A stretch of 64,000 nucleotides of DNA, from NCBI GenBank assembly GCA_963575745.1, contig CAUYUJ010009835.1:41001-105000 (forward strand), given 5' to 3'. Both the position numbers and the translations under genes were made by a program. Numbering within the stretch: position 1 is the first letter of the stretch; every line of letters begins with the position of its first letter. Below, one piece after another: positions 17,085 to 52,484 of this stretch. A model generated the notes under the pieces. The model made no database searches, was not told the origin of the DNA, and was given only the letters and a program-made list of their open reading frames with translations. Source of the DNA: Prorocentrum cordatum. Its lineage: Eukaryota; Sar; Dinophyceae; Prorocentrales; Prorocentraceae.

Positions 17085-17164
17085 CTCGGCGCGCGAGCCC
17101 GCGCGGCGGCCGCCCCCCCACCGCCAGGCCAGTCGCGGGCCGTTCTGGAACGTCTGCGCGGTCG

Positions 17165-20859: not shown

Positions 20860-21029
20860 GTTGCCCCCCCCCCCCGTGGCCACACAAAAGACCACGTTTG
20901 CTGGTGTCGCCCCAGCTGCCTAACCCCTGGGGCGTTGAAAAGGTGCTCTTCGGGCGTGCGCCGTGCGGCGCACGCCCTTACCAGCGCCCCATGCGTCCTT
21001 TCCAACACCCGCCCCAGGGGCTGCGGCAG

Positions 21030-23428: not shown

Positions 23429-23463
<35 letters not shown>

Positions 23464-23485
23464 GGTCGTCGTCGTCATCGTCGTG

Positions 23486-23518
<33 letters not shown>

Positions 23519-25872: not shown

Positions 25873-25929
25873 CTCCAGCCTCCTCAGCGACTCCTCCGCC
25901 TCCCTCAGCCTCCCGAGCCCCTTCTCGGC
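25873..25929 (-). CDS. TPR gene, exon (57 nt)
   Basis: It encodes AEKGLGRLREAEESLRRLE, the remainder of the third TPR (G.LGR..EAEE.L..LE). The acceptor is CCCCAG|GCC. The 3' end is uncertain: GAG|GACC at 25872 would end in phase zero, and an AG|GC site at 25879-25880 would end the exon seven bases earlier. Confidence 0.65.
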
Positions 25930-28900
25930 CTGGGGCCGCGCGCGCCCGCGCCCCCCCCGGCAGCGGCGCGCGCGCGCGCCCGCACGCGCTCGGGCGGCCA
26001 GAGGCCTCCCAAAGTTGGAGGCTCTGGACATGGGCGCCAACACTAACACAGGGGGGTTGCCTCCACTGGGGAAGGATGATCCTAGATTTCGGTGTCGGTG
26101 GTAATTTCGTCGGCCGCCTAGGAGGCCAGGACATGACCATCATCGCCGAGCTCGGGAAACTCTTCCCTCGGTAGAGGGACACCGCCGACATTGGTGTTGG
26201 TGTCAGCCTCTAAGCCTCCGACGAAGTGCGAGGAGATGGGGTCGGAAGATCGCGCTGCATCGATGCATCGCCAATGCGGCGCGATCCTCCGACCGCATCC
26301 ACGCAGACCCCCTTTGGGAGACCTGGAGTGGTGGCGGCCCGCAGGGACGAGTGCGGGCCCCGCGCCTGTGCTCGCCTCCAGGGCCAGACCTCTGGCTGTC
26401 GGCATCCGAAGGCCGCTCTCGGGCCCTGCGGCTGTCAACGTCGGGCCCGGGAAGAGAAAGTGCCCTCAGGAAAGGGGTCGAGACATCTGTGGCCTCCAGA
26501 TCGAATAAAACGATCCATCGGCACTGGGGGGTGGAGGCGGTCTAGCTGGGCGAGTGCGGACCCCACTTCTCCGCCCCCCTCCAGAACTGAGCAGGCTCTG
26601 GGTATTGTTGGCGCGCCTCTTTGTGAGGATGATATCCTCCTCCCCTTCCCTCTCCCCCCCTCCTTCTCCCAGGTGATTATCCCCCCCCCTCCTCCCTCAC
26701 CCCTATGGCTTATCCTGCTTCCACACCCTCTACTACCTCCTTTATCCCATCTCATCCTTATCCATATTCCTTCGCTCTTCCGGATCCCCCTGCCCCCTCC
26801 TCACCTCATTAATCGTCCTCAGCAGCATCACCATCAGCACAATGTACCTGTTCAGACGCAACATCAGCAACCTCATCAGCATTATCACCATCACCTTCGC
26901 CAACTTCACCAACAACAGCACCAGAAGGATCACCACCAACATCACCACCATCATCATAATCAATCATCATCAACATCATCAGCATCATCAACAGCAAAAT
27001 CATCACCCCGTCCTCATCATCCTCGCCGTAATCATCAGCAGCACCATCACCGTCACCAGCATCATCACCATCAACATCAGCACCATCGTCGCCATCAGCA
27101 ACAACATCATCAGCATCATCATCAGCATCATCACCATCATCACCATCATCAGCATCGCCCTCATATCTGTTGCCCCTTCTGCTCCTCCTCCTCCTCCTCC
27201 TCCTCCTTCCTTCCTTTTCCTTATACATTACTTCTCAGTGGCGCACCCCGACGCCGGTCGAAAGGGCGGGCCCGGCGTTTCGCCTGAGACTTTCTCACAA
27301 ACTTATGATCATGAAACTTACAACTTGACAGCAGCTTCACAGATGGAGAGCGGGTCGCTTCCAAAACGTGGCTCCACCCTCAGCGCCCCGCACATTCGCT
27401 TTGAGACATTCGCAACAAATCCACGGATTGAGAGCGGGTGCTTTTCACAATTTGGTTTGCGCTTTGGCGCTGCGCACAATCGTTTGGAACATTTGCACGG
27501 GGTTCACAGATTGAGGGCGGCTCGTTCTCAAAATCTGTTTCTCGCCTTAGCGCTGCGCACAGTCGTCTTTGCAAATTGACAAAAGCTTCGCGGATGGAGG
27601 GCGACTCGTTTTCAAAATGTGGTTCTCGACTGAGCGGTCCGCATATTCCTTAAAGAGAGAACAGGTGTAAGCCTTTCACGGATTGAAGGCGGCTCGTTTT
27701 CAAACTGTGGTTGTGGCCTTGCCGCCGCGTGCATTCAGGTTCAAACTTAGCCCAAGTTGCATTGATGCTCTTGGCTAATGTACCAACAACGGTGTTTTTG
27801 ACCGGTTCAAAACTGTCGGGGCGCAACAGTTACGCTGATTCACGGCGTTGCAGTCCCCAAAACGGCGTCCCGGCACGATTCGGAATCGCCAAGACGCAGA
27901 GCCGATCTAAGCCACAAAATCGTCGCTGAAAAACGTGAGGCCCTCCGTCGGCCAACACACGCACACACAAACATCCAAGGATCCCCCCCCCCAGGGTGCA
28001 CCATAACATCCACCAAACCCGACAAGCGCGAGGGTACTCCCGAACCGACCTCGATCTATAGCTCGGTCCGACTGTACCAGTCAGGTCAACAGTGCCAAGC
28101 CCTCAATGGAAATGACCGTTTGTAGGGACCTACGAAGAGGGAGCTTGGAGGGATGGTGTATCCCCACATCGTTGATGGATCTTGGGTGTACACTGGTCCT
28201 CCTCCTCCTGCTCCTCCTCTTCTTCCTCCTCTGCCTATTCAACCACCTCCTTCTCCTTTTTCCTCCTCCTCCTCCTCCTCCTTGTTCCTCCTCTTCCGTA
28301 GGGCGACTCAGCGCGTCCCCAGGTCCGCGCGTGGAAGCCGCGCGCGCGTAATAGCGCACCGCGGGCGGTCGGCGCGCGAGTCCCCCGGATCTTTGGAAGG
28401 CCCAGATTCCGTTTCAGAGGGGTGAAAAGGGAGACCGCCACGTCATTCCTACATCCCGAGGCTGGTCAAAGAGGAGGCGAAAGGGAAAGGTGAGCGGCGG
28501 GGCCGCTCCGATGATCATGACGCGTATACCGGCGGCGCATCTTTTCGGTAACGCTGTACTCGGGATACTCGTCGGCATCCTAGAATCGAACTGCGGGTGT
28601 TACGGCGCACCAGTAATATAACACTGTAGCGCTACAGGAATCAGGCGTCGTAGCCTGTCGGCATCCCCTGCGCTCCACGGAGTGCCGCGCGCTGGAGCAG
28701 GCAAGTAGTGTCATCCAGCCAGCGGACAGTGGCGGACGTCTCATCGAGTCATGGTACGTTTTGCCGAGCCTGCCTCGTGCTGCATCGCCGATGGCAATCG
28801 GTTTCTTGACGCACCTGGGCTTCGAGCTGCGGCTCGGTTGGGCTGCCTCGAGTAGGAGCGGACATCCAGGTTGTCATGCATCTTCTCGATGGCCCCCAAA

Positions 28901-31900
28901 GCTGTGCCCGCGGCCCTCGTAGCCCACTTGTTGCCCACACGGTTCAGCAGGTGGCACTCGTAGTTGATCTCGTGGCCCTCCAAGCTTGCTTGTGGCCCAT
29001 GCACTTCAGCTCGTCGTCCAGGTACCTATGTGGAAAGAATTCGTAATTCTCCTTGTGGCCCGCGCAGCTCAGGTTGCGGCCCTCGCAGGTCCAGCAGGTG
29101 CCCCCCCGTAGCTGGGTTGGTGGCTCTTGGAATTATGTTCGTGGTCCTTGCAGTTCCGCTCGTCGTCCGAGTAGCTACGCGAGAACCTCTCGTAGCTTCG
29201 CCTGTGGCCCGCGCATCTATGTCTGGGGTCCCCGTCGCTCAGCAGGTGGCCATCGTAGCTAAGCCGGTGGCTCTCGAAGTTCTGCACGTGGCCCTTGCAG
29301 TTCAGCTCAGCTCGTCGTCCAAGTAGCTCTGCGGGAGGCTCTCGCACTTCTGCTCGTGGCCTCTGGTTTTGGCCATCGTAGCTGCGCAGGTGGCCCTCGC
29401 AGCTGAGCTGGTGGCTCTCGAAGTTCTGCTCGCGGCCCTTGCAGTTCGGCTCGTCGTCCAGGCTATGCGGGGGCTCTTGTAGTTTCGTGGGTCAGGCTGT
29501 GGCCTTCGTGGCTCAGCAGGTGATCCTCGTTGCTGAGCTGGTGGCTCCCGAAGGTCTGCTCGCGGCCCTTGCAGGTCAGCTCGTCGTACAGGTAGCTCTG
29601 CAGGAGGCTCTCGTAGGTTTGCTTGTGGCCCGCGCACCTGCGACTATGGCTTCGCAGCTCGGCAGGTGGACCTCGTAGCTCGGGAGGTGATCCTCAAAGC
29701 TGCTCTGCCTGCGGCCCCAATGGCTCAGCGCGTGGCCCTCGCAGTCCAGCCTGTGGCCCGAGCAGCTCTGCAGCTGCAGGTGGCCCTCGCAGCTCACTTG
29801 GTGGCCTGTACTTTTGCGTCGCCATCTTTCTTATAGCCTTGCTCATCGTGGTCCTCCTCCGTCTGCCTTCTTGTTTTTTTTTTCTCCTCGTCTGCCACCT
29901 CGTGCTCCTCGTGGTCCAAATCGGAATTGCCGACTGCCAGATGGTGTCGTTCTGCTCTCAAGTTGCCTGGCGGCGGCCCTCGAAGTTGGTGGCTCTTGTA
30001 GCTCTGCTGGTGGCCCTAGAACTCTGCTCGTGGTCCTCGCAGCTTTCCGTTTTGCCGTTGCAGCTCTGCTGGTGGCCCTCGAAGCCCAACCCGTGGCTCT
30101 AGAAGCACTAGTTCTTGCTGTCGTAGCTCAACTGGCGGCCTTCGGAGCTGAACAGGTTGGCTTCCGTAGAGCATCTGCAGTGGCGAATCAACCTCGTAGT
30201 AGTATGCGCCCAAGTTGTGGCAGCTTTCCTGGCCAGACTGGTCGCAGTGGTCGTGGTCGCGGTTGTTGCAAGCGCGGCACGAAAAATCGCGCAGGTCTCG
30301 GGCGGAGGTACCTTTACTGGCGCAGGAGGCTTTGAAGCTGTAGTCGGGGCCCCCTATTTTCTGCCAGTGCTTAGGGTTTCGCCTCACTGCCCACCGCCGT
30401 CGTAGGATCGATCGTCTTTTGTAGCGCACTTGGTGTCGTACTTGTTGTAGGCGGCAATCGTGCATATCATGATGTCTTTCAAAGGTTTGATGAGAGCCCG
30501 TGTCTTGCACAGCACCCCATCCGCTTGAGAGCTGCCGCTGCTCTCAGTCCCGGCGAAGCGTTCGCTGGTAGGCATCCACATATCGTGGGATGAACTTGTA
30601 GCACTGGTGGTTCGCGAAGCTAGGCCTGCAGATCTTGAGGTTCAGCCTGTAGATCTTGAGGTTCAGCCTGCGGATCTTGGGGTTCAGCCTGTAGGTCCCA
30701 GTCTTGTGCACGGCGTACGGGCGCAGCCCCCCGTTGCGGCGGCGCGCTGAAGCTGCCCCCCCCCCCCAAGGGTCCCAGCGCGCGGCGTTGGGGCCCGGGG
30801 CCAGGAAAGCCTCCTCCTCCACTCCTCCTCCTCCTCCTCCTCTTTCTCCTCCTCCTCCTCCTCCTCCTCCTCCTCTTCCTCCTCCTCCTCCTCCTCCTCC
30901 TCCTCCTCCTCCTCCTCCTCCTCCTCCTCCTCCTCCTCCTCCTCCCCCTCTCTGACGATCGACCGCCGAACATCCGCAGATGTGACGTTAGATGTGACGT
31001 TTGACCATACTTTCGACATGGCGACGAAAAGCCTCCCAGAGGCCCCAGAAGGGAAAACAAAACGTCATGAACCTCAAACCACGATCCTACTCCATCCATC
31101 CTCCTCCATCTACCCCTGACGTCGTGATTTTGTCACAATGTGGACCCCGAGAGAAAAGCACCATTTTCCCCCATGGCGAAACACCACCTCCCCAACCCCC
31201 CGACGGGCAGCCAACCCAGACCCATGAGCCCCCCACACCTCACATCATCCCTTTCAAAACAGAATACAAAATACACTGTGCTTCCGAATCTGGAGTATGC
31301 GCGGGCGCCGCGCGACCACTTGTTTTTTGGCATGGGCGGTGGGGGTGCCGGCATATTACCTGTTTTGTGCCATGCCAGCACCACCCCACTATCCCTTACA
31401 AAAAACCATGCGCAGCACACGTTGCAGCAACATTTAGGGTCATGTTCGGGGCGCCCGCGAGCACTCTGCAGTGTTTTTGATAGGGGCGGCGGGGGTGCCG
31501 GCAGATGGTCTGCTGCGCGCAGGGCCACCATCCTTGTCGGCAAACAACGCAAACTGCCGCTCGATGCGCGGGCACCGGGCACCCCGCGATCACGTTGCAG
31601 TGGGTTTTGACAGGGACGGCGGGGTGATGGAACGTTGCCTGCTGTGCGCAGGCCAGCCAGGCATCATGATGGCCACTCCGCCGCGATTGCTCCTTGGTGT
31701 GTGACAAGTATGGCGGAGTCCGATGTGCGTGGGCGCACCCGGCACACTCTGCGCGTGCCCCGAGCGTGGCGCACCTGACGCGTCTGGAGCATGAGGCACA
31801 CATGGCGCACGTGGAGCACGTGGCACATCTGGCGCACCAGGCGTGCCTGGCACGCTTGGGCCTCAGGGGCGCCTGGCGCGCCTGGTGCGCGTGGCGCACC

Positions 31901-34900
31901 GCGCCCCAGCGTCGCGCACCTTGAGTCTGGATTGGTTCCCAGTAGCTGCCCATCCGAAGACGATCGCTGAATATGCTGAGACTCGGGTACTACTCATGTG
32001 TTGGGAGGGCGGGTGAGAGTGAGCCAATCAGTTTGCGTCTGGGAGAGGTGTCTTGACCCCTCTCCTGCGTCTGGACAGGGCGGGTGCTATGTGTCAGAGG
32101 GTTCCTTTGGGCCCAACATGGCTTCAAAAATGGGCGCAAGATGGGCCGAAGTGGACTACCGTGGCTCCCTACACGTCTCTGGGAGCATGTACGATGCCTC
32201 CAAGACTACTCCAAAGAGCTGCGAAGCCTCCCAAGGATGCCCCCAAAATATGCACCCGATCAATACGCTCAAATCCTGCATAACCTTAGGTTCTCATTCC
32301 ACAATTTGAAGTTCCTCGCATTTTCGCTTATGATAGGCTTCTGTGGCCTCAGGATGACCCCAAGATCGCCCGAAAGAGCCCCAAGAGAGAGGCCCAGCAG
32401 AGCCCCCACGAGGACCCCGAGGGCCTCCAAAACGCAAAGAGCTTCCCAAGAGGATCCCTAGAGGCGAGTTGCTGGCTCCGACGAGGCGCAGCTACTCGAC
32501 TCCGTCGACTCTGCCCAAGATGGCCTCAAGGGGACCCCCAGTGCCCCCAAGAGGGCACCAAGAGAACCTCGCGAGAGACCAGCTTGCCTCCCAGAACGCT
32601 CGAAGAGAGCGTCAAGATGGCAATCAGAAGCGAAAGCATTCATGGTCCACTCCTGTCTGTTTCGCGCCTCTCCGCCGTTGCGGAAGACTGAGGGGTCAAT
32701 CATGGAGGCATCAGGCACGGGATCTGTCGACCCCAATCTCCGACTTCGTTGGGCTTCCAAGCGGAGCGAACATTTGGGGCCCAATTCGGAGATATGCGAT
32801 AGGGAGGCGTCCGTCCTCAACAGGGAAGCGTTTGAATAGCCACCTGTGGGTGCATTCCCGCGTCTCCCCTCCTGTTCTGAGCGGCCTGACTTTTAGCGGA
32901 AAACTCGGGGGCTGGGGGCGAGAAATCGCCTGCGAGCATCCAGGGCGCCCCTTCAGGAGGCCCTTCAGCGTCCGCGGTGGACAAACCTGCCTTTAGTAAA
33001 CCTCCATTTAGTGAAAGCGGCCTAGGACCGAAACCGACGGACCTGGACCCGCAAAAATGACGGCCGCGACGCCCTCTCGCGAACCGAAAACGGCCAATCT
33101 GCTAACCGACGCGTCAGGGTAGGAGGTCGGTCAACCTCCGACAGCAAGGTGAAGAAGACACGGGCGGGGTGCAAGCACGTGACAGGGCGGCTGCCCCACC
33201 CCCCTCCTTGTTCGCCGATGGCATCCAGGATGGCCCAAAGAGCGTCGACACCACACTGTGCCCTTCAGCTTCTACACAAATATAGGGGGGCTTGAAAGTA
33301 ATGCGGCGACTGTCTCCTCCCCCCCGCTGAGGCTGCGCTCTCCCCCCTTCCTCCCCCTCATTGTTAATTCAAGCTCCGCGCGGCCCGCTTAGCTTCGACC
33401 GGAAGAGGTGCGCTCTCGACCCGCGAACCAAAAACTGTCTCCTCCCTCCCCGTCTGTTTGTGCCACTGCATGCCCCCGTACTTCCTTGGTCCAGGCTGCA
33501 CTCATGGGGGTCACTACTGAATGGGCCAGTGGGGATCCGCGAAGCGGCTAGAATGTCCCCCACGCCCCCACGAAAAAAACGTCGTGCCTCGTTCACGGCG
33601 CGAGGGGTCTGGCTTTCGCGCCATGACTCGGCCCTCCAGCGGCAGCTCGGGACTATTACCACTCTCGGCAAGGCGCAGATCCTGCAAACCATCCCGAGAC
33701 GAGAGAAAGCTTCAACAACTGCAGAAGAAAGCAGAAAACGTCCAGGACGGAAACCACAAGGAGGGCGTCTGGGAGCCCGCCGTCCGCTCCCCACCCGCCA
33801 GCGCGGCGACAGAGCCGGTGGGCGCCTGCACCTTTCGGTACCAGGCCTTGTGGTCCTCGTCGTCGATCTTGAGCGCCGCCTCGGCCGCCTCGGTCGGCGA
33901 AACGAGTCGTCGTCGTTGTTGTCGTCGTTGCCGTCGTCGTCGTCGTCGCTGGCGGCGGCGGTGGCGGCAGCGTCGACGACATCGCAGTCGTCCCCCTCCT
34001 CCCTCCTCCTCCCTCCTCCCCCCTCCATCCTCCATCGAAGAAAGAGGCTCGAACGAAGAAGGGGAAGAAACAAGGACTCGTGTCTTTTTTGTTTCAAATC
34101 TGGTCGATATCGTGGAGTTCAGCATGCAACCTCGCAGAAGCCCCTACCGACCGCCTGCCTCGCTGGCATCGGGACTCTGAGTGGCGTAGCCGTCTGCTCG
34201 CAACATCATATTGAAGCATACCCTGCCCTCGTTCAAGATCCACTGCTCAAGAAACAAACCGCGAGAAGGGGGTGGAGGAGGAGGAAGAAGAGGAGGAGCA
34301 GGAGGAAGCGGGGAGGCGAGGGGAGGAGGAGGACGACGACGAAGAAAACGACGGCGAGTAACGACAGCGGCGGCGGCGGCGACGACGAAAGTCGACGACA
34401 ACGACAACGACGACAACGACGACGAGGACGAGGACGAGGACGACATTGACGACGATGACGACGGCGGCGACGGCGACGGCGACGGCGGCGGCGAAGACCA
34501 GCGGTGGGTGCACAGGGGCGGGAGGGGTCCGCCGCCTCGAGAGCCGTTTGGAAGAGCTCCAGCCTCAGGGCCGCCTGCGCCTCGGTCGTGCGCTCCTCCT
34601 TCTTCTCCTCCTCCTCCTCTTCCTCCTCCTCCTCCTTGTCCTCCGCCTTGTCTTCCTCCTTCTCCTCCTCCTCCTCCTCCTCCTCGTCATCCTTCTCCTC
34701 CTCCTCTTCCTCCTCCTTGTCCTCCTGGGTCATGCATTCCTCCTCCCCCTCCCCCTCCCCCTCTCCTCCTCCTCCTCCTCCTCCTCCTCCACCTCCTCCT
34801 CCCCGCATTATCCTTCGCTTCTCTCTTCGCCTCCGCCGTTCATACTCCGCACGGATGTCCTTTTCCTTCTCCTCCTCCTCCTCCTCCTCCTCCTGCTCCT

Positions 34901-34951
34901 CCTCCTTATCATCATCATCAGCATCATCATCATCATCATCATCACCACCAC

Positions 34952-35026
<75 letters not shown>

Positions 35027-37405: not shown

Positions 37406-37436
<31 letters not shown>

Positions 37437-40400: not shown

Positions 40401-43400
40401 CTCCTCCTCCTCCTCCTCCTCCTCTTATTTCTCCTCCTCATCATGCCCCCACTCCTCTCCTTCCCCCCCCCGTGCTCCCCTTGCTCCTTGCTCCCCGCTC
40501 CGCGCCCGCTCCCCGCATGCCCCCCTGCCGCTCCGCCCACCCCTCCTCTGCCTCCTCCTTCGCGCCCCCCCCCACGACCCCCTCCTCCTCTCCTCCTCCT
40601 CCTCCTCCTGCTCCTCCTCCTCCTCTCCTCCTCCTCTCCTCCTCCTCCTCCTCCTCCTCCTCCTCCTCCTCCTCCTCCTCCTCCTCCTCCTCCTCCCCTC
40701 CTCCTCCTCCTCCTCCTCCTCCTCCTCCTCCTCCTCCTCCTCCCCTCCCCCTCCCCCTCCCCCTCCCCTCCCCTCCCCCTCCCCTCCCCCCTCCCCCTCC
40801 CCCTCCCCTCCTCCTCCTCCTCCTCCTCCTCCATCATATGCAGTTGTGAGTTCCCTCGTGGCGACCGGTCCCCTCCGTCGTGCCGTCGCCTCGTCGTCGC
40901 CGCTCGTCCCCGAGGACTGGGGCCCCGCGTGCTCGGCTCGATCCTCCGTGCCGCCCTCGGCTCGGCCGATCGTGTCCGCGGCTCGGCACGGTCGAGAAGG
41001 ATAAGGCCTTCTCAGAAGCCCTCGCGCCTTCTCCGGGGAAGGCTCAGAAAACTTCTCAGAAAGCCGGGGGACTTCCGAGCCTTCTGAGAAGGCCCGCCCC
41101 TGCTCGCGTCCCCCCCTCGCTCGCCGCCCGACCAGGGCGGCGCCATCGACCGAGCGGGGCCGCGGACAGCAACCCTCGAGGCGCGGGGCTGTGCGTATGA
41201 TGTGCAAGAGTGGACTTAAGGCACGTCCCGCCCTGTCGGCCCCTGCTAGTGCCTATGAGTGTCCCTACTAGCGCCTCTTAGCACCTTTTGGCGCTTAGTG
41301 TCTACTAGCCCCTACGTTCTAGCGACCACCCACCAGCAGGAAGAAAGGCTACTGCCCGGGGAAAACAACAGCTCTATGCTTACAGTGACCCTCACGCACA
41401 GCACACCTGAGCGGAGGGGGGCCCGGCGCGTGGCCGCCACCCGGCCTGCAGCCACTTGCGCTCGTTCCGCAGGTGCGCCTCCACCCGCCACTTGCGCAGC
41501 TCCTCTCCGCGCCGAGCGGCGGGCAGCGGGCGGGGCGAGTCCAAGACTACGACGGGCGTCTTCTGGCAACGTGGATTTTGGGCCTCTGAGGCCGTTCTGG
41601 GGCCCCGAGGCCGTGAGAAAGCGAGCCGCGGCGCAAGGCCAGTCCCGGGATAGGGTCGAGAGCTCCAGGGTCGCACGCCTGCAGCTTGAGGAACCCACGA
41701 ACCTGGCAAGGAAACTATTACGTAGGATACAGTGGAGGCCCGACCACAAGAAGACTTCCACAAGAAAACAAACCCTGAGACCCGAGGACATCCATTAACC
41801 CTGTAGCGTGGGAAACGTCACGCCTTCTACAGCAAAACCATCGAGACCCAAGAAACCCAGGGCACCCTGGAGGCAAGCAGGGTGTTTTGGCATGGGCCTC
41901 CACTGTAATCTGCTGACAAGCTTCTCTGGGGACGCCTCCATCTGTGAGGATGTCTCAGACGAGAGCCAAGCTCTTGAAGGACCATCGAAGTCGGGAGCTC
42001 ACTGAACATCTCATCGGATATCGAGGCGAAACGCCCTCCCCCCAAACACCATGTTGGAGATCGTGTGCCACGGAGAGGACACGCGTGACCAGCTCTTCCG
42101 TGAGCCTCCAAATTTGGGATTCGGAAGTGGGGGGGGGCGTCTGCGTCGTCGGAAGGGGCGTTTGCAGGACTCGCGTGACCGCATTTTTGTTGGGGGGCCT
42201 CCGCATTTGGGAATCGGAAGTGGGGGGGACGTCTGCGTCGTGGGAAGGGGCGTTTGCGTTGTCGTCGCTCGTCGGCAGGCGAGACGCCCGCCCCCTCCCA
42301 CCATGTTCGATGTCCGTCGCAGGATCTCCAACGTCTGAGTTGTCTGAGAACGTCTCAGGCGAAAGCTTCACTTTTGAAAACCAGTGTCGCTCCAACAAAC
42401 CCGCCAACATCCCCATTGCGTGAGGATGTTTCAAGCGAAACGCCCCTCCCCTCCCCCCCCAAACACACACACACACACACTTTTGCGCCGGCGGCTGGGC
42501 AGAGGGTGACTGCTCCGGCGATCGGGCATCAGGGGGCGCACTGGATGCAAATTCAGGCCGCGATGCACAAGGGAAGAGGAGGAGGCCCCGGCGCGACGGG
42601 AAGAGGGGAAGCCGGGCCCGCTTCAGACACACACACACACACCATGTCCGATACGTGACGCCCGACCATTAAAGTCTCATTTGTCTGAGGATGTCTCAGG
42701 CGCAAGCTTCACTTATGAGAACCAACGCCGCTCCAACAAATCCCCCAGCATCCCAATTGTGTGAGGATGTCTCAGGCGACACGCCCCCCCACACCACGTT
42801 GGATATCCGACGCCCGATCTCCAACATCGCATTTGTTTCTTCTGAGGATGCCTCAGGCGAAAACCTCACTTTGAGAACCAACGTCGCTGCAACAACTCCT
42901 TTCACATTTTTTGTGTGAGGAGGTCTCAGTGGAAACGCCCCTGGCGACACCATGTTGGATACCCGACGCCCGATCTCAGCATCTAAACTTTATGAGGATG
43001 CCTCACAAGAAACCACATTTTGAAGGACCGGCGTCGCTCGCAACATGCCCATTGCGTGCGAATGTCTCAGCGGCAACTCTTCCTCACCCTGCTCGTCACC
43101 CCTCTGGTCTAAAACCAAAGGCCCGATGACAAAGAGAACCCTGGGAACAAACCCACGGGGAAGAGCACAGCGTCGGAGCTCTGGGCGTGGAGGCAGTCGG
43201 AGGACGCCAACTGTCCACACGCACCGGCCCTGGTGATGCCCGTACCAGGCCCCCGGGACCGCTGGACACGCCCCTTTGGCTTGGCTGGGGAGGCACACTC
43301 CCACAGGGTGCGATGACCGATGCGGCCAGCCGAAGTTGCGTACACGTGCAGGAGAAAGGCGGCGCCATGGGAGACAGCCTTCTGGAGGTCGGACAGGAGT

Positions 43401-46400
43401 GCGGTATAAAAGGGTGTTGTGCCAGTGCTAAGAACGGCGATGGTATCTACAGTATCCGCGAGCGTGCTATCCCGATTTCAACAACCTTAGCTTTGCGCCG
43501 ACCGCCCCAAACAACGTCAGAATGTCTGATCACAAATTTCGCTAACGACCGCAGTGCTATGTGAACGGCAACACAAACAAAAATTCCAGGGCGCCCGATC
43601 ACCAAACACACACTTTCGGATATTCCGAATCGCGCAGAGCGTGATTCCGTAATTTCCGTCCCGCCAGAAACGATATTCTGTAAATTTTAAAATCAGAAAT
43701 AATACTGTTCCGATTCAAGACATAGTTCCGGAAACTTCGAAACGACGTTCCAGACATTCCAGAATCCGCCGGCCCGCTTGCGGGGCCATCAGGCTGCGAG
43801 GATTAAGGTTGCTGCTCCCTGCACAAGTTCCAGCTTCCAGTTTCCATTGTTACAATACTGCTTTCTGCTTCCTACTGTACTTTGTTACTGTCCGCGCGAG
43901 GGGGGGGAGCCGAAAACCGTCCTGGTCAGCACCCCCCGGAGGGGTTCTCAGAATTCCTGCGGGGGGTAAAAATTAACACCCCTCACGCAGATCGGCGGGG
44001 TCAGGGTCCAAAAACATATGGGATTTGCCACATATCTGAAATTCGGTGGCACCCCTCACGCAGATCGGCGGGGTCAGAGTCCAAAAACATATGGAATTAG
44101 CCACATTTCTGAAATTCGGTGGCACCCCTCACGCAGGTCGGCGGGGTCAGGGTCCAAAAACACAAAGGATGCGCTGCATTTTTAGAAAATGTCCTCACAC
44201 CCCTCACGCAGATCGGGGGGGTCAGGGTCCAGAAACATTCGGGATTTGCAACATGTTTTAAATTCGGTGGCACCCCTCACGCAGATCGGCGAGGTCAGGG
44301 TCCAAAAACACCAGAGATTTACCACATTTGTAAAATTTCCAAGCACCCCTCACGCAGATCGGCGGAGTCAGGGTCCAATTCGGTGGCACCCCTCACGCAG
44401 ATCGGCGAGGTCAGGGTCCAAAAACATATGGGATTTGCCACATATCTGAAATTCGGTGGCACCCCTCATGCAGATCGGCGGGGTCAGGGTCCAAAAACAC
44501 AAAGGATTTGCCACATTTCTGAAATTCGGTGGCACCCCTCACGCAGATTGGCGGGGTCAGGGTCCAAAAACATATGGGATTTGCCACATTTCTGAAATTC
44601 GGTGGCACCCCTCATGCAGATCCGTAGGGTCAGGGTCCAAAAACACAAAGGATTTTTCAGCATTTTTGAAATTCGGTGGCACCCCTCACGCAGATCGGCA
44701 GGGTCAGGGTTGAAAAACAAATAAGTCCCGACACTGCTTCACGGCAAAGCCAAAGCCTCATGACTTCGCTCTTCCATGGCCCATTCTCCGAGAGAGGGGG
44801 CTGGCGGCAGGGGGCGAAGCCCTTACGGATCACATAAATGATTCCAGGAAATTCCGAAACTTCTGGGTTCGCGTGCCTGGCGACAGGGGAATGGAGCTTT
44901 CTGTCGACGTTCTGATTGGGCGGCGGTCGTTCGGAAAAACTAGAATTATGAATGATGCCTTTGTTGAAGCGACCGTCGCAACAACAAGGCTAGTGAAATC
45001 AGGATGCAGCGCGCTTGCTGCGATGGTAGATCACATCGCCATTTCAACACTGGCACCGCACTCCTGTATACCACACTTGTTTCAGACTTCCGGGAATCAA
45101 AATAAACAGGCACGTGTTTTCATCTGGCGCCGAAATGAAAACAACAAACGGATCCCGAACTACGGGAACTACAGAAACGGGTTACGCTCGACGTAAAGGC
45201 ACCGCCTTGCGTGGGAGCGTCAGCCAAGCTGAAGGCCCCAGCTGGAGATCATTCGTTTATCCGACGGGGCTAACGCGTATCACGGGGGAGGGGTCGGCGG
45301 ACGGGGGGGGTAATGGTAACGACAGCCGCGGCGTGCAGACCCCAAGGCGCACCCGCAACACTGGCGCAACAATCGCCCGTGTGCACCACAGTCCCTGTTT
45401 ACACTACAACGCTTGAGTGCCTGTGTACACCACATTCCCGACGAGGTCCAAACTCGGGAAGATCGCGGTGGGCATGAACGAATCAAATACACATATACGT
45501 TGTTTGTGGTTATTGATTTTGTGTCCCAGGATACGGTCCACCCTGGGTATTGGGCCCGCAGCGCCTGCGCTCAGCTACAACATTACGCTTGCGCAACCAC
45601 AGCAGCCGTGTGCACAACGCTCCTGGCGACTGCGCCCACTTGCGCACACCAAAAAGCCAACGTACACCCCAAAGTCCCGACGTTGAATACGTGAGGTATG
45701 TGTGATTATTGAATCGCTTCGCTCATTCCGCCGGCCCGTGATATGGCATCGCTGGTTTTTGTCTGTGTGTTCGTTGCCCATGTTGCGCTCTTGGGGGCGG
45801 GTGTCGTTCGGACGCGTTGCGTGGGGAGTTTTGATGGTGAAGCAGTTCCCTGGGGGTCGTCTCTCGATGGGGCGAAATAGAGTCGTCGTCAAGATGCTTC
45901 TTTGGGGGGCCTCTTGGGGTCTGTTGAGAGGCCGTTCGGGGGCGCCTGGGAGACATGTTTGAAGCCTTCTGGGGCTTCTTTTGGGCCTCCTGGGAGTCTC
46001 CTGGGGCCTCTTGGCGACATCTTGGGGCCTCTTGGAGGCCTCTTGGGGCCTCTTTGGGACCTCCTGGGCGCCTTCTGGGACGGAGGGCTCCATTTTTGAG
46101 TTCTCGGTATCCCTCCTGAGTCCCTCTTGGGCCCGTCTTGGGGCCTCTTGGTCCGTCTTGGGCGGCACTTGGGCCGTCTTGAGGGCTCTCTTGGGTCGTT
46201 TCGGCGCCGTCTTGGGAGCTTCGTGGGCCGTCTTGGAGCGGTCTTGGGGGCCTCTTGGGCCGTCTTGGAGCGTCCGGAAGCCGAAAAAGCCAGAACACAA
46301 AAAACATCGAAAAAACCAATGAAAATCAACGATTTTGGCCTCTTGGGGCTCTCTTCGGAGGCCTCTTGGAAGGCTCTTGGGGCGTCTTGGAGGCCTCTTG

Positions 46401-49400
46401 GGCTGTCTTGGGGGCCTTTTGGGCCGTCTTGGGGTCATCTTCGGCGTCTTCGAGCGCTCTTTGGGCGTCTCGGGGGCCTCTTGGGCAGTCTTGGGGGCCT
46501 CTTGGGGCACTCTGAGCGCGCTCTGGGGAGCCTGAGAGGCCGCACCCAGAAGGAAAACCATCTCTGAGTAGACTTGGTCGGGCGGCGGTCGGGCGGCGGT
46601 CGGGCGGCGGTCGGGCGTTGGTCGGGGTACTTTTCGCCGGGGGACCCCCAGGGGCCGCCCCGCGCGCGCGAACTAGAAATACTGTTAATACTGTTAACCA
46701 GTTACCGGAGATCTTAGCACGCCCTGGCCCGTTGGGCCGGCGAATTGATGTTCCTGGCCTGCAACACGGTCCGCCCTTTAATTTGGGCCCGCCGTGCCTT
46801 CGTGTACCAGAACGCTGGTGTACAACACAATGGTTGCGCCACCACAGCAGCCGTGCGCACCACAGCCCCTAGCGCCTGCGTTCACCACAGTGCTTGTCTA
46901 CACGCATGTGTACACTACAAGGGTTGTATACATCTCCAAGGTCCCGACGGGAAGCACCAACTCCAGAAAGTCGTAGCGGACCCACAAACGTATTCAATTC
47001 AAAATGTAAGTCGTTCGTGATTATTCCTGTTCCTGGCCAGGAATACACTCAACTCTACCGCAGTGCTTTCATGTACCACAGGGTTGTATACATCTCCAAG
47101 GTCCCGACGGGAAGCACCAACTCCAGAAAGTCGTAGCGGACCCACAAACGTATTCAATTCAAAATGTAAGTCGTTCGTGATTATTCCTGTTCCTGGCCAG
47201 GAATACACTCAACTCTACCGCAGTGCTTTCATGTACCACAGCGCAGGCGTACAACACGATGACTGCGCAAGCACAGCAGCCGTATGCGCCTCTTGCTCTT
47301 CCTCCTCCTCCTCCTCCTGCTCCTCCTCCAGCTCCTCCTCCTCCTCCTCCTCCTCGTCCTCCTCCTCCTCCTCCTCATCCCCCCTCTTCCTCACATTTCA
47401 ACAGATGGATCTAAGAGTCCTGTTCCTGTTCGGATCCGAAGGAGCTGCATGGGGGTCCCTACAAGGTCGTATGGAAATAGCAGGGATTCACGCATGTGAC
47501 CAGCTTCAAGGCGTTTCCAGTGAAGGGGGGGGTGTCTGGGGAGGTAACACGCTATGGTATGGTCGAACGTAGCTGAACGCCGAGCAGCAAAAGTCACACA
47601 CACACACACGCACACCTCTTTCTCCGACGGCCGAGGTGTGGATAGTTGTCGTACCCTGAGGGGGGGAAGGTGGGCTCGTCTCCTGGGCCCTCGTCTGCTC
47701 TATGAACCAACCGGTGGCAGCAAGGAGACGGGCGAGGACGGGCGAGAATGTGCGAAGCACACACTGCAACAAGCTGTCAGCAACAGGCGAACCCATGCAC
47801 GAGCCCCTTTTGTATTTTATCTTTGTGGGGAGGGAGAAGATGTGAGAGGACATGTTGGCACCGCGGGGAGAGCACGGTGCAACGAGAAAGCGGTCGCACT
47901 TGAAAGCCGTCTTCTTCCTCACCCAGGAGGGGGGGAGGATAGCCCCATGCACGGACCTGTGGCTTAGGAGGTCGGGCACAGAACTGTAGTTCGGGCCCTC
48001 TCAGGACCTTCTGGGAAGCACGCCCAACAGGCTCTGGAAATACCGGAACACTGGCGCGGCCCTAACTAAGTAGGGGTGCTAACTTTGCTGAAGGCACGCG
48101 TTTGCAGCGACCTGCAACACAAGGCACTGCAATGCAAATCATATCACAGCAGAACATAACAGCTCCCTGCGTACTGCGTAGCATGTTGTCGCATAGCACC
48201 GCTCCCTCGCAATGCATAGTACAGCATGGGGTACCGTGGTACAACATTGTGTACCTTAGCATCTGATCGACATGCCTAACAGAACACTGCACACCCAAGA
48301 CAGCCTCCAGCGGTGAAGGTCGCAATGGCAACGTTTGAGACAATCCCTCCTCTGAATCCTGTGAAAACCCTGTCGTCGCTGCAACCCTGCAATTGAACGC
48401 AGCAGCAACAATCTCAGCCACCACATCTGCTGTAATACTTTGGTTCTGGTGCGTCTTGCCTAACAACGCATTCCCGGGGACGACGGCTTGAACATACATC
48501 CGAACGACTGCCGCTCCCACAATCAAGATCAGGCCATTCGTCTCCGACTCATGTTTGTTGTGGGTCTACGTGTGCTTGTCCCAGCGTGTATGTCTAAACT
48601 CTGGCTGAGCAGCAAACTTGCAGATCAACTATCCCCGACAACTCCTTGTCATACACGCACAAGTAAACGGGGGGAATACGAAGAGTGGGAGGATGAGGGG
48701 GAACGGGAGGAGCAGAGGTGCACTGATGCGTGCAATATCGCTTCACGCATCACGCGCAGATCGCTCGTCAAAGACAAATGGATACATAACCACCCGCCCC
48801 CCGAGTCCTCGTCGCCGCGCGAGTAGTCAAACAGAGCCTCCTGACAGAAGCAATTGCGTGTCACTTCCATTGCCACTCAACCCCGCACAGTGGCCCACAT
48901 GTCCATCCCCATCCCTATCCCCGTCTAAACAGCGCTGTTCACAAAGGCAACTGCGAACACGTGCGATCCACTCCCCCTCCTCATACTCAAGCTCGTTCTT
49001 ATCCGTCGTCTCGTCCTACTCGCCGTCTTCCTGCAGAACTCAAAGCTACGCAAAGCAGGGCATGCAATTACGTAAACACTGCTTATAAATCCTGCATGTG
49101 CTGGGCCAGCCATGATCACTCTCTCTAAGCAAGAAGGCAATGCCAAGCTGGGGGGGGAACTACATGGCTTGTACCCACATAAGTAGTGCTATGACTCGTC
49201 GTCCTCCTCCTTACCCTTCTCATCCTCATCATTATCTTCCTTATCCATCTGCCACCGTGCCTCTGGGCACGGAGTAGAGGTGTCCTCAGGTCCTTTCCCT
49301 AGTCCTATAAGCCTCAATACTCACTCATGAGGAGTCTTCAAAGGGCCCAGAGCCCAAATTGCCAAATCTCTCGGGGTGTGACGCGGCTTTGCGCAGCTTG

Positions 49401-51247
49401 TGACTTGACTTTTCGGTGCCAGGAGGGCCCCAAGGAGGACCAAGCCTAGAGGCCTATGGCCCACAACCCAGACACGGTGGCGGGATGGGCCGAAGGCCAT
49501 TCGATATTCTTCCTCCGCCCTCTCGTGCTCATTCGGCTCTATCATCCCTTCTGTGTCCTCATCCTCCTCCGCCGCCCTCTTTTTTCCACTCATCCTTCTG
49601 CGTACTCGTCCTTCATATTTCTCCATCGTCGCCCGTTCCATCCGATTTCCCCCTTCTGGTCCACCTTATCCTTACGATATTCCTGCTTGTATTTCTGTCT
49701 TCGTTTGAGGAGGAAGAAGTCAAAAGGGAAATAATGCGATCTCGCGACAAACGTCTTACGCAACAGCGAGAAACACGGAATCCGCCGACCCCCGCTTGCT
49801 CGGGGTGAAAAGGCGTGTGAGGCATTTGGCTGTCCCCCTCCCCCCTTCCCCCTCCCAAGGGGTCCAAACTCGCAGTAGAGAGGGGGGGAGAGCCGGACGG
49901 TGGGGGGGGAGGGGACCGGGAACTCCTCAACGCCCCCCCCGGGGCCTCTGGAGCCTCCACATCTACACTCCGTGGCTCCCAAGCTGCCAAGATGTCACCT
50001 AAGCTGGCTAAAGCTGGGCCCCAACATGTCGAGGAGTTTTCAAAGACGACCAAGATTGCCTCAAGACCTCAAGACTGCCCCAAGAGGGCTCCAAGACGAA
50101 CCCCGAGAGCATGAGTTGTCCAAATTCTTTCGAGGAGGACGTAGCTTCTTAGAGCGTCCAACACGGCTCAAGAGGCCCCAAAGATCGCTCCACGACGGCC
50201 CACGGAGCCCCCAAGAGGGCCCCAAGACTGCCGAAGAGGGTGCCAAGACGGCCCAAGAGGCGCCCAAGATGGCCCAAGAGGGCCCTTAACAGGGCCCCAC
50301 GAGGGCCCCACGAGGGGCAACTCGAACTAGCACTCCGAGCCCTCCGCCCCAGGGTGAACCCCGGGACCGCCAGCAGGCGCCCCCCAAAAAGTCCCAAGAT
50401 GCCCCAGGCGGCCCCAAAAACATGCCTAAACGAAGCCCCCTAGAGGGGCCCCACGAGGCCCCACAAATCTTCAACCGTGGACTTCTTCTCTCTTCTGGGG
50501 GTCGGCGGAATGGCACCATCCTCTCTAATAAACGAATCACAATATGTACCATGCTCGCTCCACGAGCCGTCGCCCTCCTCCTCCTCCTCCTCCTTCTCCT
50601 CCTTCTCCTCCTGCTTCTGCTCACTGCTCACTACCCCGCTCCCTCATTCATCATTATCCTCCTCCTCCTTCTCCTCCTCCTCCTCCTCCTCCTCCTCCTC
50701 CCCGTCGTCCTCCTCGTCGTCGTCATTATCATCAACACCATCAGCATCAGTATTATCATCATCATCATCATCATCATCATCCTCATCATCCTCATCATCA
50801 CCATCATCACCATTATTGTTATTGTCCTCCTCCTCATCCTCGCCCTCGTCCTCGTCCTCGTCGGTAGCCATCCTGTTCCTCGTCCGTATCCTCCTCCCTG
50901 GACTCCATCACCCCTTTCCTTTCGCCCGTATCGCCCTTATCAATCGTTGCTCTCTTCCTCCTCCTCCTCCTCCTCCTCCTTCCAGCTCTTTCGTCTTTGT
51001 CCTTATCACAGACCCCATTCCACCTCCTCTACATTACCAGCAACTTCGATATCCTCCCTCCGCTCCCTTCAATTCCCTCATCTGAGTCGTGGTCATCCTC
51101 CTCCTCCTCCTCCTCCCTCTCCTCCCTCTGCTTCCGTATCCAGCATGATTCATCCCTCGGCATCTGTCCTCATCTTTATCATCAACTTCAACACCACCAC
51201 CACCACCGCAACCACAACCACCCACCGCAACCACCAACCACCACCAC

Positions 51248-51312
<65 letters not shown>

Positions 51313-51520
51313 CCAGCGTCAGCATCAGTTTTATCATCATCACGCGTGCAACCATCATCAGCATCATCAGCATCATAATCATCATCATAATCAACATCAC
51401 CATCATCATCATCATCACCATCATCATCGTCATCATGATCGTCGTCGTCGCTACCATCATTATCATCACCACCACCACCGTCACCATCTCCATCACAATC
51501 ACCATGACACCATCACCACG

Positions 51521-51557
<37 letters not shown>

Positions 51558-52484
51558 GCCTCATCCTCATCATTATCTTCCTCGTCATCCGCCTCATCTT
51601 CATCATAATCATCATCATCGTCGTCGTTACCGTCGTCGTCATCGCCATCATCATCCCATGATCTCATCATACCGTTACCATCCCATCACCTCATCATCAT
51701 CATCAGCATCCGCATCATCACTGCCTAAGTATCCTCATCATTGTCATCAGCCTCATCCTGATCATCATCACCACCATCACCACCATTACCACCATCCCCA
51801 TTTTCCTTCTCCTCCTTCTCCTCCTCCCTGTCCTCCCCCGCACTTATCCGACTACTTCAAACCTCTCCTCCGCGCCCTCCGCCTCACCCTGCTCCCACCC
51901 ATCGTCTGCTCACCACTTCTCCCCATCCACACTCCCACCCCTCCTTTCCCTCCTCCTCCTCCCTACTCCCCCGCGTCCTCCTCCCTCCTCTTCCGCTACC
52001 CAGCCCCTCATCACTCCTCCTCCTTCCTCCACCAACTCCATCACTGCACTTCTCCGCCTCCTCCCGCCTCCTCCTCGGAGACGAAAGCGGCTTCAAGACA
52101 ACACCGAATCGGCAAAGTCGGGGACCTCTGAGGTCCAGCGGTCCTGGAGGACGTCTTGGGCGCCGCGGCCGCCCCCGAGCGTTCCAGAGCGCTCTCAAGG
52201 CGCTCTGGAACCCCCTCGAGGGATCCATCCCTTTCCTGTCCGGGGCGACGATGGAGGGTGAATAGCCCAAGGGGCGACCGATGCGTGCAGCCAAGGGCGC
52301 CGCTGGCCCATGCCTTCGGCGAGGCTCCCTGGCGAACGCGTGTGCTGCCCGCACCCGGGCTCGTCGCCCCCTGTCGTCGCCTCCGACCCCGGGCCTGCCC
52401 GATCCTCCCGGCGTCCTCGTAGAGGCCCTCCCGGAACTTCGCGTTGCCCTCGAGCTTGCAGGCCTGCCCGAACTCGAGCACCTC
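25873..52484 (-). CDS. TPR protein gene split into tiny exons (whole span)
   Basis: Six exons on the minus strand (52416-52484, 41446-41502, 36151-36180, 34536-34580, 33826-33888, 25873-25929) carry 107 codons of a tetratricopeptide-repeat protein. TPRs are paired helices of 34 residues that bind other proteins, and related proteins are often chaperone partners. Exon 1 shown gives a TPR start (KLEGNAKF.EG.YE). The other five join in phase zero with no residue missing: KWLQ-DEQLACLKNK-AQAALRLELF.. ..TALE-AAEAALKIDD.. ..KVQ-AEKGLGRLREAEE. By hand count 103 of the 107 codons end in G or C. Four introns run from AG|GC to AG|G. About ten residues between the first and second exon, the true 5' end and the 3' end are missing. 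All else inside the span is intron. Confidence 0.75.
26640..27210. repeat. CT-rich and (CAT/CAC/CAG)n tract
   Basis: The tract begins pyrimidine-rich. From about 26820 it becomes CATCA/CACCA triplets and ends in CCT. The His/Ser/Ile-rich frames across it are not genes. Confidence 0.9.
27340..28205. repeat. Composite element C, copy 2
   Basis: Four to five 80-85 base units (GGATGGAGGGCGACTCGTTT, GCGCTGCGCACA) are followed by the second repeat with GCTGATTCACGGCGTTGCAG and GGCACGATTCGGAATCGCC, then the tail with GAGGGAGCTTGGAGGGATGG and TCTTGGGTGTACACTGGTCC, then CCT. About 200 bases near 27920-28110 are extra relative to the other copies. Confidence 0.8.
28960..30170. repeat. 21-bp minisatellite (GTGGCCCTCGCAGCTCAGCAG type)
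   Basis: Diverged units close to GTGGCCCTCGCAGCTCAG fill about 1.2 kb. Because 21 is a multiple of three, minus frames stay open and read like C.GH.L.YEGH repeats, but frame and stops change often. I regard it as non-coding. Confidence 0.7.
30820..30955. repeat. (CCT)n tract
   Basis: Nearly pure CCT for about 135 bases. Confidence 0.95.
31320..31690. repeat. Tandem repeat, three copies of about 130-152 bp
   Basis: The phrase TTTTTGGCATGGGCGGTGGGG (about 31324) returns as TTTTTGATAGGGGCGGCGGG (31476) and TTTTGACAGGGACGGCGGGG (31606), with CTGC.GTG.GCAGGCC-like sequence after each. From 31740 to 31925 a TGGCGCACC-type minisatellite follows. Confidence 0.7.
32345..32600. repeat. CCAAGA cluster C (short, diverged)
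   Basis: Units such as CCCCAAGAGAGAGGCCCAG follow a core-like stretch at 32280-32335 (ACCTTAGGTTCTCATTCCAC, TCGCATTTTCGC), the same order as in clusters A and B. Confidence 0.65.
33826..33888 (-). CDS. TPR gene, exon (63 nt)
   Basis: It encodes AAEAALKIDD and then EDHKAWYRKVQ, the classical TPR boundary (AL.ID....KAWYR). The acceptor is ACCGAG|GCG and the donor GTGCAG|GCGCCC. Of the exons it is the one that most clearly marks the family. Confidence 0.75.
33889..34535 (-). other. TPR gene intron, 647 bp
   Basis: This intron runs GC to AG between two confidently placed exons. It holds GTC/CGA-like triplets and CCT-rich runs but no gene. It is the shortest intron found in this gene and the easiest to test by cDNA. 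Confidence 0.65.
34536..34580 (-). CDS. TPR gene, exon (45 nt)
   Basis: It encodes AQAALRLELFQTALE: the small-residue turn and helix B of the second TPR, with Ala and Phe where the family has them. The acceptor is ACCGAG|GCG and the donor CTCGAG|GCGGCG. It is embedded in CCT-rich sequence. Confidence 0.7.
34581..36150 (-). other. TPR gene intron, 1.57 kb, with (CCT)n and (CAT)n
   Basis: CCT-rich sequence at 34600-34900 is followed by about 1.2 kb of CAT/CAC/CAG triplets (34905-36090). Long Asp-rich, Ile-rich or His-rich open frames here come from the triplets and are not genes. Confidence 0.75.
36151..36180 (-). CDS. TPR gene, exon (30 nt)
   Basis: Only ten codons, DEQLACLKNK, form the start of helix A of the second TPR. 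The acceptor is a good pyrimidine-rich site ending CCCGCAG|GAC and the donor is AACAAG|GCGGGC. Confidence 0.65.
36230..37585. repeat. (CCT)n and (CCCT)n pyrimidine tract
   Basis: More than 1.3 kb is nearly only C and T. A pure CCCT block is at about 36700-36795. Short mixed islands occur at 37180-37330. Confidence 0.95.
37700..37790. repeat. Isolated unit of the 80-bp repeat of element C
   Basis: One unit, ACGAATGGAGGGCGGGTCGT ... GCGCACACATTCGTCTT, stands alone just before the 90-bp array. Confidence 0.7.
37898..39245. repeat. Satellite, about 90-bp period, about 15 units
   Basis: Units carry GGCGGCGCCGCCATGCGAAC, CTGGGACCTTAGGTGGAGCT and CCTATGGGGCCACGAAACGT. Spacing of the GCCGCCATG landmark is mostly 84-91 bases (80 to 115 overall). 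Thirty codons per unit keeps frames open on both strands for 100-170 residues, but units with other lengths break them, so this is not treated as a gene. Confidence 0.9.
38998..39032. repeat. Perfect palindrome, 17-bp arms, 1-base centre
   Basis: CATCTAATGTCCCATTT is followed by one G and its exact complement. It sits inside one satellite unit and lengthens the local spacing to 115 bases, so it entered after the array formed. Confidence 0.9.
39478..39985. repeat. Composite element C, copy 3
   Basis: Three 80-85 base units are followed by the second repeat (GGCACGGTTTAGGATTGTCAG, CATTCGCGGCGTTGAAATCG) and the tail with GAGTCTTGGGCTTATACTGG, leading into CCT, as in copies 1 and 2. Confidence 0.8.
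39985..40840. repeat. (CCT)n tracts
   Basis: CCT runs at 39985-40435 and 40570-40740 are separated by mixed pyrimidine sequence, then a CCCCCT block to 40810. Very long poly-Pro/Leu/Ser/Gly/Arg frames here are artefacts. Confidence 0.95.
41005..41094. mobile_element. Small TIR element (CCTTCTCAGAAG ends), copy B
   Basis: The 14-base ends GGCCTTCTCAGAAG (41005-41018) and CTTCTGAGAAGGCC (41081-41094) are perfect inverted repeats. The inside aligns in reverse with 11719-11816. It has no room for a gene and no clear flanking duplication. Confidence 0.7.
41446..41502 (-). CDS. TPR gene, exon (57 nt)
   Basis: It encodes ELRKWRVEAHLRNERKWLQ, a charged helix that precedes the second TPR. The acceptor is GGAGAG|GAG and the donor CTGCAG|GCCGGG. 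The exon ends in phase zero and joins to DEQLACLKNK without gap. Confidence 0.65.
41930..43090. repeat. Satellite built on GAGGATGTCTCAGGCGAAA
   Basis: The phrase recurs about eight times at 70-150 base intervals, alternating with CACCATGTTGGATA.CCGACGCCCGATCT and AACCA.CGTCGCT.CAACAA. Units are diverged and broken by insertions such as the (CA)n at 42465. Confidence 0.75.
43780..43966. repeat. Dispersed repeat family 1, copy B
   Basis: This is the partner of 1434-1640 and is directly followed by the 73-bp array. Confidence 0.75.
43977..44725. repeat. 73-bp satellite, eleven units
   Basis: Units start CACCCCTCACGCAGATCGGC at 43977, 44050, 44123, 44198, 44271, 44344, 44387, 44460, 44533, 44606 and 44680. 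Spacing is 73 with single exceptions of 75 and 74, and one unit is cut to 43. Units are 85-95 percent alike. A 73-base period shifts frame each unit, so it is not coding. Confidence 0.95.
44780..44830. repeat. Short dispersed repeat family 2, copy B
   Basis: This is the partner of 5232-5283. Here family 3 does not follow, so families 2 and 3 are separate elements. Confidence 0.7.
45895..46545. repeat. CCAAGA cluster D, inverted, with core
   Basis: It reads GGCCTCTTGGGGCC and GCCGTCTTGGG on the plus strand. The core at 46265-46340 (GTCCGGAAGCCGAAAAAGCC) is the complement of the cluster A core CGGCTTCCGACG. Confidence 0.85.
46921..47240. repeat. Perfect 160-bp tandem duplication
   Basis: Bases 46921-47080 and 47081-47240 are identical at every position by direct reading. 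Each copy starts GGGTTGTATACATCTCC and ends TTTCATGTACCACA. The sequence around it has older, diverged relatives of the ACAACAC..TG.TTGCGC.ACCACAGCAGCCG phrase. Confidence 0.95.
47290..47385. repeat. (CCT)n tract
   Basis: Short CCT/CTC run with a few CCTG interruptions. Confidence 0.9.
49459..49503. repeat. Short dispersed motif, copy 2
   Basis: GCCCACAACCCAGACACGG is followed by TGGCGGGATGGGCCGAAGGCCA. See 3764-3813 and 61144-61270. Confidence 0.65.
50040..50460. repeat. CCAAGA cluster E with core
   Basis: Units are of type CCCCAAGAGGGCC. A core at about 50100-50165 (TTGTCCAAATTCTTTCGAGG ... CTTCTTAGAGCGTCC) precedes AACACGGCTCAAGAGG. Confidence 0.8.
50575..51800. repeat. (CCT)n and (CAT)n tracts
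   Basis: CCT-rich blocks (50575-50710, 50955-51120) alternate with CAT/CAC blocks (50725-50820, 51180-51800). Confidence 0.9.
52181..52211. repeat. Perfect hairpin, 12-bp arms
   Basis: GTTCCAGAGCGC and GCGCTCTGGAAC enclose seven bases. It lies about 200 bases downstream of the most 5' TPR exon, inside the intron. Confidence 0.8.
52416..52484 (-). CDS. TPR gene, most 5' exon found (69 nt)
   Basis: It follows a pyrimidine-rich stretch and CCGGAG|GAG. It encodes EVLEFGQACKLEGNAKF and then REGLYE, which matches the first helix pair of a TPR (charged, EGN..F..G.YE). All 23 codons end in G or C. The donor is probably GAG|GACGCC (GA type), although a few more codons, DA..., could belong. The real start codon lies further upstream and was not found. 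Confidence 0.65.

Follow-up and report, generated by a model that had tools for sequence, protein, structure and literature searches.

A dinoflagellate TPR co-chaperone-like gene of Prorocentrum cordatum, its TPR part probably divided among eleven 25-69 nt exons spread across 59 kb

Long introns and odd splice donors are already known from dinoflagellate genes. The published genome of the bloom-forming species Prorocentrum cordatum (4.15 Gb, 22,724 scaffolds, 59.7% GC) has 9.8 introns per gene, with mean lengths of 4709 bp for introns and 240 bp for exons (PMC10666404), the mean intron of Amphidinium gibbosum is 3468 bp (PMC7557087) or 3732 bp, and a 26-kb intron of Crypthecodinium cohnii is cited in a review (PMC11453091). 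Here we describe a locus on the minus strand of a 64,000-nt stretch of P. cordatum (hereafter the window; contig C9835, positions 41001-105000, from an assembly of 4.13 Gb in 21,875 contigs), with a GC content of 60% and abundant triplet repeats. We consider it likely that this locus is a stretch of a dinoflagellate tetratricopeptide repeat (TPR) co-chaperone-like gene whose TPR part is distributed over eleven exons of 25-69 nt within 59 kb, and it is this small exon size that is the unusual part. Listed in order of transcription, with scores in bits to a family profile, the exons and the intron-bearing stretch are:

76347-76388 (window-equivalent, on the flanking contig), minus strand: upstream exon, EIASSEEKKRELIP; 33 bits
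68963-68989 (window-equivalent, on the flanking contig), minus strand: upstream exon, 27 nt, APIDVHTLQ; 27 bits
52416..52484, minus strand: exon E1, 69 nt, EVLEFGQACKLEGNAKFREGLYE, first TPR; 74 bits
48808..48840, minus strand: exon E2, 33 nt, EALFDYSRGDE, finishes the first TPR; 26 bits; overlooked by the sequence-only reading
41446..41502, minus strand: exon E3, 57 nt, ELRKWRVEAHLRNERKWLQ; 40 bits
36151..36180, minus strand: exon E4, 30 nt, DEQLACLKNK; 32 bits
34536..34580, minus strand: exon E5, 45 nt, AQAALRLELFQTALE; 50 bits
33826..33888, minus strand: exon E6, 63 nt, AAEAALKIDDEDHKAWYRKVQ; 80 bits
25873..25929, minus strand: exon E7, 57 nt, AEKGLGRLREAEESLRRLE; 44 bits
22126..22151, minus strand: exon E8, 26 nt, DVAQWCPD and two bases of a split Arg codon; 32 bits; likewise overlooked
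17060..17084, minus strand: exon E9, 25 nt, the end of the split Arg codon, then RNILRDCE; 31 bits; likewise overlooked
17085..52415, minus strand: intron-bearing stretch E1-E9, with eight introns of 3575, 7305, 5265, 1570, 647, 7896, 3721 and 5041 nt

Taken together, the 11 exons (25-69 nt, mean 43) add up to 474 nt over 59,329 bp, i.e., 0.80% coding, and are separated by ten introns of 0.65-16.5 kb (mean 5.9 kb); nine of them (405 nt, 135 codons) lie in the window and the remaining two upstream, beyond it. The sequence-only reading mentioned in the list, an earlier look at the window, had proposed a dinoflagellate TPR gene from six pieces of 69, 57, 30, 45, 63 and 57 nt. All six were found again on the minus strand at the same coordinates, with G or C as the third base of 103 of 107 codons, and the last five do join in a single frame into 84 residues across introns whose lengths (5265, 1570, 647 and 7896 nt) match those proposed. 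Its picture of small exons among kilobase introns was also sound, though its exon count was too low (nine in the window, at least 11 in total), and coding sequence, which it had put well below one percent, in fact makes up 1.2% of the span it considered (321 nt), or 1.3% with the exon missed there.

The closest relatives of the locus are dinoflagellate proteins. A search with an 87-residue joined peptide retained six proteins out of 28 candidates, the best of them 72% identical over 98% of the query, and two wider searches with chimeras of these relatives scored 464 and 7997 candidates, of which 16 and 71, respectively, passed the thresholds (the larger search scored only candidates sharing most words, and all three allowed lengths of ~48-884 residues). 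Altogether 86 proteins were returned, of which 66 were used for the junction and conservation counts. Full-length relatives, including Protein C10 of Pyrodinium bahamense, pph-5 of Symbiodinium natans and an unnamed P. cordatum product, begin with a helical region, continue with three TPRs and end in a C10-like domain (at E 0.01, PF14974 is found in 43 of 46 relatives, the three best matches inspected being below its cut-off). The nine-exon composite (139 residues, not identical to the final model, from which it departs in a single residue where E8 meets E9 and in four beyond E9) shows 76% identity to the P. bahamense relative P0019 over 138 residues with zero gaps. Nine of the junctions are gapless in all 66 relatives and one in 62 of the 66, the three-TPR core is present in family order, and 49 of 53 near-invariant residues are retained (the relatives' median is 98%, the lowest 89%). 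Two relatives, P0001 and P0002, have a single open frame across six and four of the split junctions, respectively. Dinoflagellate proteins thus read through the junctions, the very point on which the earlier proposal had staked itself, and the assignment to a dinoflagellate TPR gene survived.

The family profile draws on 53 of the 86 proteins. Its alignment to the DNA permitted introns, and unread (N) contig letters, three stretches of them in the fetched contig, were replaced by stop-bearing filler. Against profile positions 141-310 (the TPR part) the minus strand of the window scored 296 bits, compared with 24 for the plus strand, 23 for the reversed profile, 25 for the reversed sequence and a mean of 23.5 (maximum 31.0) for 44 column-permuted profiles. 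Low-complexity, GC-rich DNA might mimic TPRs by chance in a window of this composition, and the G or C content of third codon positions (GC3) by itself does not discriminate (128 of 135 codons, 0.948, in the nine window exons, against a mean of 0.60 and a 99.9th percentile of 0.963 in 5000 random 405-nt window stretches), being weak evidence when alone; however, none of the controls exceeded 31 bits where the gene reached 296, such an origin is refuted for the gene as a whole, and we regard its probability as negligible. One plus-strand match (33695-33751, profile 107-125, 34 bits), coil-like and on the wrong strand, was attributed to chance, though it lies slightly above the permuted maximum of 31, and the terminal "exons" of one spliced run, Glu-rich or below 10 bits, were discarded.

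Individual small exons are a different matter, as the opposite strand of the upstream flank gave at best 22 bits and a laxer scan of 225 kb produced chance matches of up to 34 bits. Because chance reaches such scores, E2 and the 27-nt upstream exon, the less certain of the two upstream ones, rest on order, phase and borders and not on score. For E2, order and phase are correct, both junctions are gapless and the borders read tcag|GAG and GAG|gact, while those of E1 are ggag|GAG (acceptor) and GAG|gacg (donor). The end of E8 forms a phase-2 junction (CAG|gcag), placed four bases later in a low-complexity-masked run; E9 was missing from the spliced path when this mask was on, scores 33 bits if extended to RNILRDCEAAR and has a 3' border uncertain by a few codons.

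The splice sites follow one pattern throughout. Among the ten introns, six donors are GC, four GA and none GT, acceptors are AG|G in all ten and donors follow AG in nine, which is in line with the published P. cordatum pattern (donors 51% GC, 24% GA and 25% GT; AGG acceptors 80%; PMC10666404). The spliced-alignment scoring favoured AG|G, so these counts are not fully independent; the borders previously set by the sequence-only reading for its six pieces yield identical exon lengths. The joined coding sequence contains 29 AG|G sites, nine of them with an intron, and the tenth intron follows CCG. Nine introns are in phase 0 and one in phase 2, a bias that follows from 23 of the 29 AG|G sites being in phase 0.

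As to function, the likeliest prediction for the TPR part is binding to the tails of Hsp90/Hsp70, since a structure model of P0019 (computed with 46 sequences; mean predicted local distance difference test score 85, predicted template modelling score 0.46) folds like FKBP52, FKBP51 and Cyp40, its best fold matches, some of which were solved with an Hsp90 peptide, and since the carboxylate clamp positions K, N, N, K and R are present in E1, E4 and E6. In this model the TPR helices lie at ~161-286, and relatives of the joined peptides in PDB include SPAG1, FKBP4, Cyp40 and PP5. We postulate that the locus would give a single pre-mRNA of at least 59 kb, from which introns would be removed under the relaxed dinoflagellate splice rule, with AG|G acceptors and AG|G(C/A) donors, and that the resulting continuous TPR domain would bind Hsp90/Hsp70 at the EEVD tail, as the TPR domains of FKBP52 and Cyp40 do.

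Several observations weigh against this reading of the locus. The stop-free reading and the AG|G preference are partly built into the scoring. TPRs were found in the joined peptides at E ~1e-5 to 3e-6, just below the curated Pfam cut-offs, and in the composite no Pfam TPR model reached its gathering score (best TPR_1, 27.2 vs. 27.8 bits); the composite is thus assigned to the family by its relatives and not by Pfam, whose TPR cut-off the relative P0010 does pass. None of the 86 returned proteins exceeds 76% identity over a long stretch (P0005 reaches 80% over 50 residues), so no transcript or gene model of the locus is in view, and the terminal branch of the window copy in the tree described below (0.38) is twice the median. 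In 225 kb of contig, three stretches of which read N, both strands were scanned with the profile and subjected to spliced alignment, which gave no convincing N-terminal exons (profile 1-141) on the readable contig to 108 kb upstream and no convincing C-terminal ones (profile ~304-491) to its downstream end. Minus-strand Glu-rich stretches (at most 32 bits), three 12-14-bit pieces chained upstream of 117 kb and weak plus-strand matches were all taken as chance or low complexity, and the best score in the 59 kb at the contig's far end was a low-complexity 28 bits. Downstream of E9, by 9.4 kb and on the same strand, lies a further frame that is not part of the gene:

5909..7693, minus strand: class 3 lipase frame, 595 residues stop-free; PF01764 26.5 bits (cut-off 22)

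Its first Met is at residue 179, its GC3 is 0.90, and GHSLGG and hydrophobic stretches are visible by eye; it is probably a gene or a large exon.

The missing ends, the scant room that this frame leaves for 190 residues, the lack of a transcript or model among the returned proteins and the presence of two paralogues in the genome would all suit a truncated relic or partial duplicate, i.e., a formerly functional split gene now lacking the exons for both ends of its protein, or a piece that is not transcribed while a functional copy resides elsewhere. Against it stand the correct order and phase of all eleven exons, the ten junctions fit for splicing and the 49 near-invariant residues, out of 53, that are kept, and the absent ends may sit behind longer introns, in unread stretches or on another scaffold; we hold a relic to be rather unlikely. 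Much less probable still is that the exons, though real, belong to another or a longer protein, e.g., one ending in the lipase: the family C-terminus is missing, the lipase frame comes next on the same strand and, as its first 178 residues contain no Met, may be the extension of an exon further upstream, yet no direct evidence points to an exon-lipase joint.

The split TPR gene stands beside few-intron relatives in the same genome. One paralogue (contig C2971, locus L014, 3136-5746) has three exons, the middle one of ~1.2 kb holding the entire TPR part, which is 58% identical to that of the window copy; it encodes the P. cordatum protein P0070 (residues 1-87 identical, the rest matching by eye to the last intron). 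A distant paralogue (contig C4714, L015) occupies one frame of 783 residues, has additional sequence at its N-terminus and shows 30-33% identity to three relatives. In a quick tree built from the TPR parts of 66 relatives and the window copy (29 of 64 inner forks open), the window copy falls near P0041 and P0027 and the C2971 copy elsewhere, on a branch of 0.68.

Such a contrast could arise if the splitting is ancestral, with old introns and no gain in the lineage, and if relatives with few introns arose as retrocopies. Retroposition is reported in dinoflagellates (a title cited in PMC10666404), and the three exons of the C2971 paralogue and the one frame of C4714 would agree with it. Against this, P0001 and P0002 have open frames across the same junctions, intron places differ in P0005 and P0018 (judged by eye from where frames leave the family), and no spliced-leader relict at five or fewer mismatches to the leader sequence was found in 9.0 and 9.5 kb around the two paralogues; we hold ancestral splitting to be less likely than not. 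The alternative, put forward less firmly than the splicing itself, is that introns may have been gained in the lineage at AG|G sites, some duplicating bases at both ends, and may later have expanded with simple repeats and satellites. In-register direct repeats of 4-9 nt occur at the ends of all ten introns, the two longest being 8 and 9 nt, and true pairs average 5.4 against 4.1 in mispaired ends (permutation p 0.006), longer repeats at true ends being the pattern expected from target-site duplication. This test rests on ten introns, mispaired ends likewise reach 8 nt, and a test of a tandem-duplication origin, in which intron starts would resemble the next exon, was not significant (p 0.07), all of which weighs against gain. 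Repeats of at least 4 nt also join 60 of 90 mispaired ends. Intron ends resemble the upstream exon end (p 0.007). Pairing of complementary repeats between the two intron ends gave p 0.36, and inverted repeats of at least 8 bases within 30 nt of both ends were found in none of the ten introns.

The introns carry long triplet arrays and satellites (46 listed rows, some overlapping). A satellite of ~89/180 bp (37836-39253, ~12 copies) lies within the E3-E4 intron, and E4, only 30 nt long, sits in a short gap between two arrays of a ~3-kb region of mostly CTC, ATC and TCC triplets (34593-37581). At 46920-47241 a 160-bp unit is present in two tandem copies with 100% matches, either a recent duplication or an assembly artefact. 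In the 647-nt intron (33889-34535) both ends carry triplet repeats complementary to each other, with a local score of 80 that is due to the shared triplets (none of the other nine true pairs scores above 33, whereas mispaired ends reach 79), and its borders share a 9-nt in-register repeat.

The locus offers a base-level case of gene fragmentation that keeps frame and conserved residues alongside a few-intron paralogue in the same genome. A gene with every known exon at or below 69 nt looks extreme when judged against the published mean exon only, and where introns of 3.7-5 kb with GC/GA donors flank exons of 25 and 26 nt, exon definition and gene finding are both difficult. If transcribed, the locus tests how the dinoflagellate spliceosome locates exons and cautions that genes may be missing from the annotations of such genomes. 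It is a speculative and on balance improbable extension that P. cordatum, and perhaps other giant dinoflagellate genomes, hold a class of ultra-split genes (25-70 nt exons, <1% coding) overlooked by gene finders; if they do, intron gain would come close to the smallest exon that a spliceosome can still recognise, and such genes would partly account for the low conserved-gene recovery in the P. cordatum genome. In genome mode, 57.9% of conserved genes are recovered for P. cordatum and 48.5-66.7% for the five further dinoflagellates, free-living or symbiotic, tabulated with it, whose introns are for the most part far shorter, and the authors of that work (PMC10666404) describe the reference set as poor in dinoflagellate data; this weighs against missed split genes as the cause of the low value. 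We found no paper joining Protein C10, tetratricopeptide and dinoflagellates, and none on dinoflagellate microexons, the latter judged from the listing.

Among described systems, introners are defined by inverted repeats of 8-20 nt and direct repeats of 3-5 nt within 30 bases of each intron end. The introns of this locus are longer than introners and, unlike them, lack the required inverted repeats (0/10). Short direct repeats occur at their ends, as they do at many mispaired ends; the target-site duplications of some introners are 3-9 bp (PMC9860276). The Hsp90 co-chaperones FKBP52, FKBP51, Cyp40 and PP5 are alike in TPR sequence and, for a relative of the locus, in predicted fold, whereas this family carries a C10-like C-terminus instead, and no FKBP, cyclophilin or phosphatase domain is among the Pfam matches of 46 relatives. 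Closer is the dinoflagellate TPR/"Protein C10" family itself (P. bahamense A0A7S0FW38, Polarella glacialis, S. natans "pph-5"), with 158 residues in the same order, gapless junctions and a nearest member ~75-76% identical; in contrast to it, the locus is cut into 25-69 nt exons, and ~141 N-terminal and ~190 C-terminal residues were not found on the readable contig. With the long-intron dinoflagellate genes of P. cordatum (PMC10666404) and A. gibbosum (PMC7557087), it shares GC/GA donors, AG|G acceptors and kilobase introns, but compared with the P. cordatum average (PMC10666404) its mean exon is 43 nt instead of 240 bp and its coding share 0.8% instead of ~11% (2798 of 24,462 bp).

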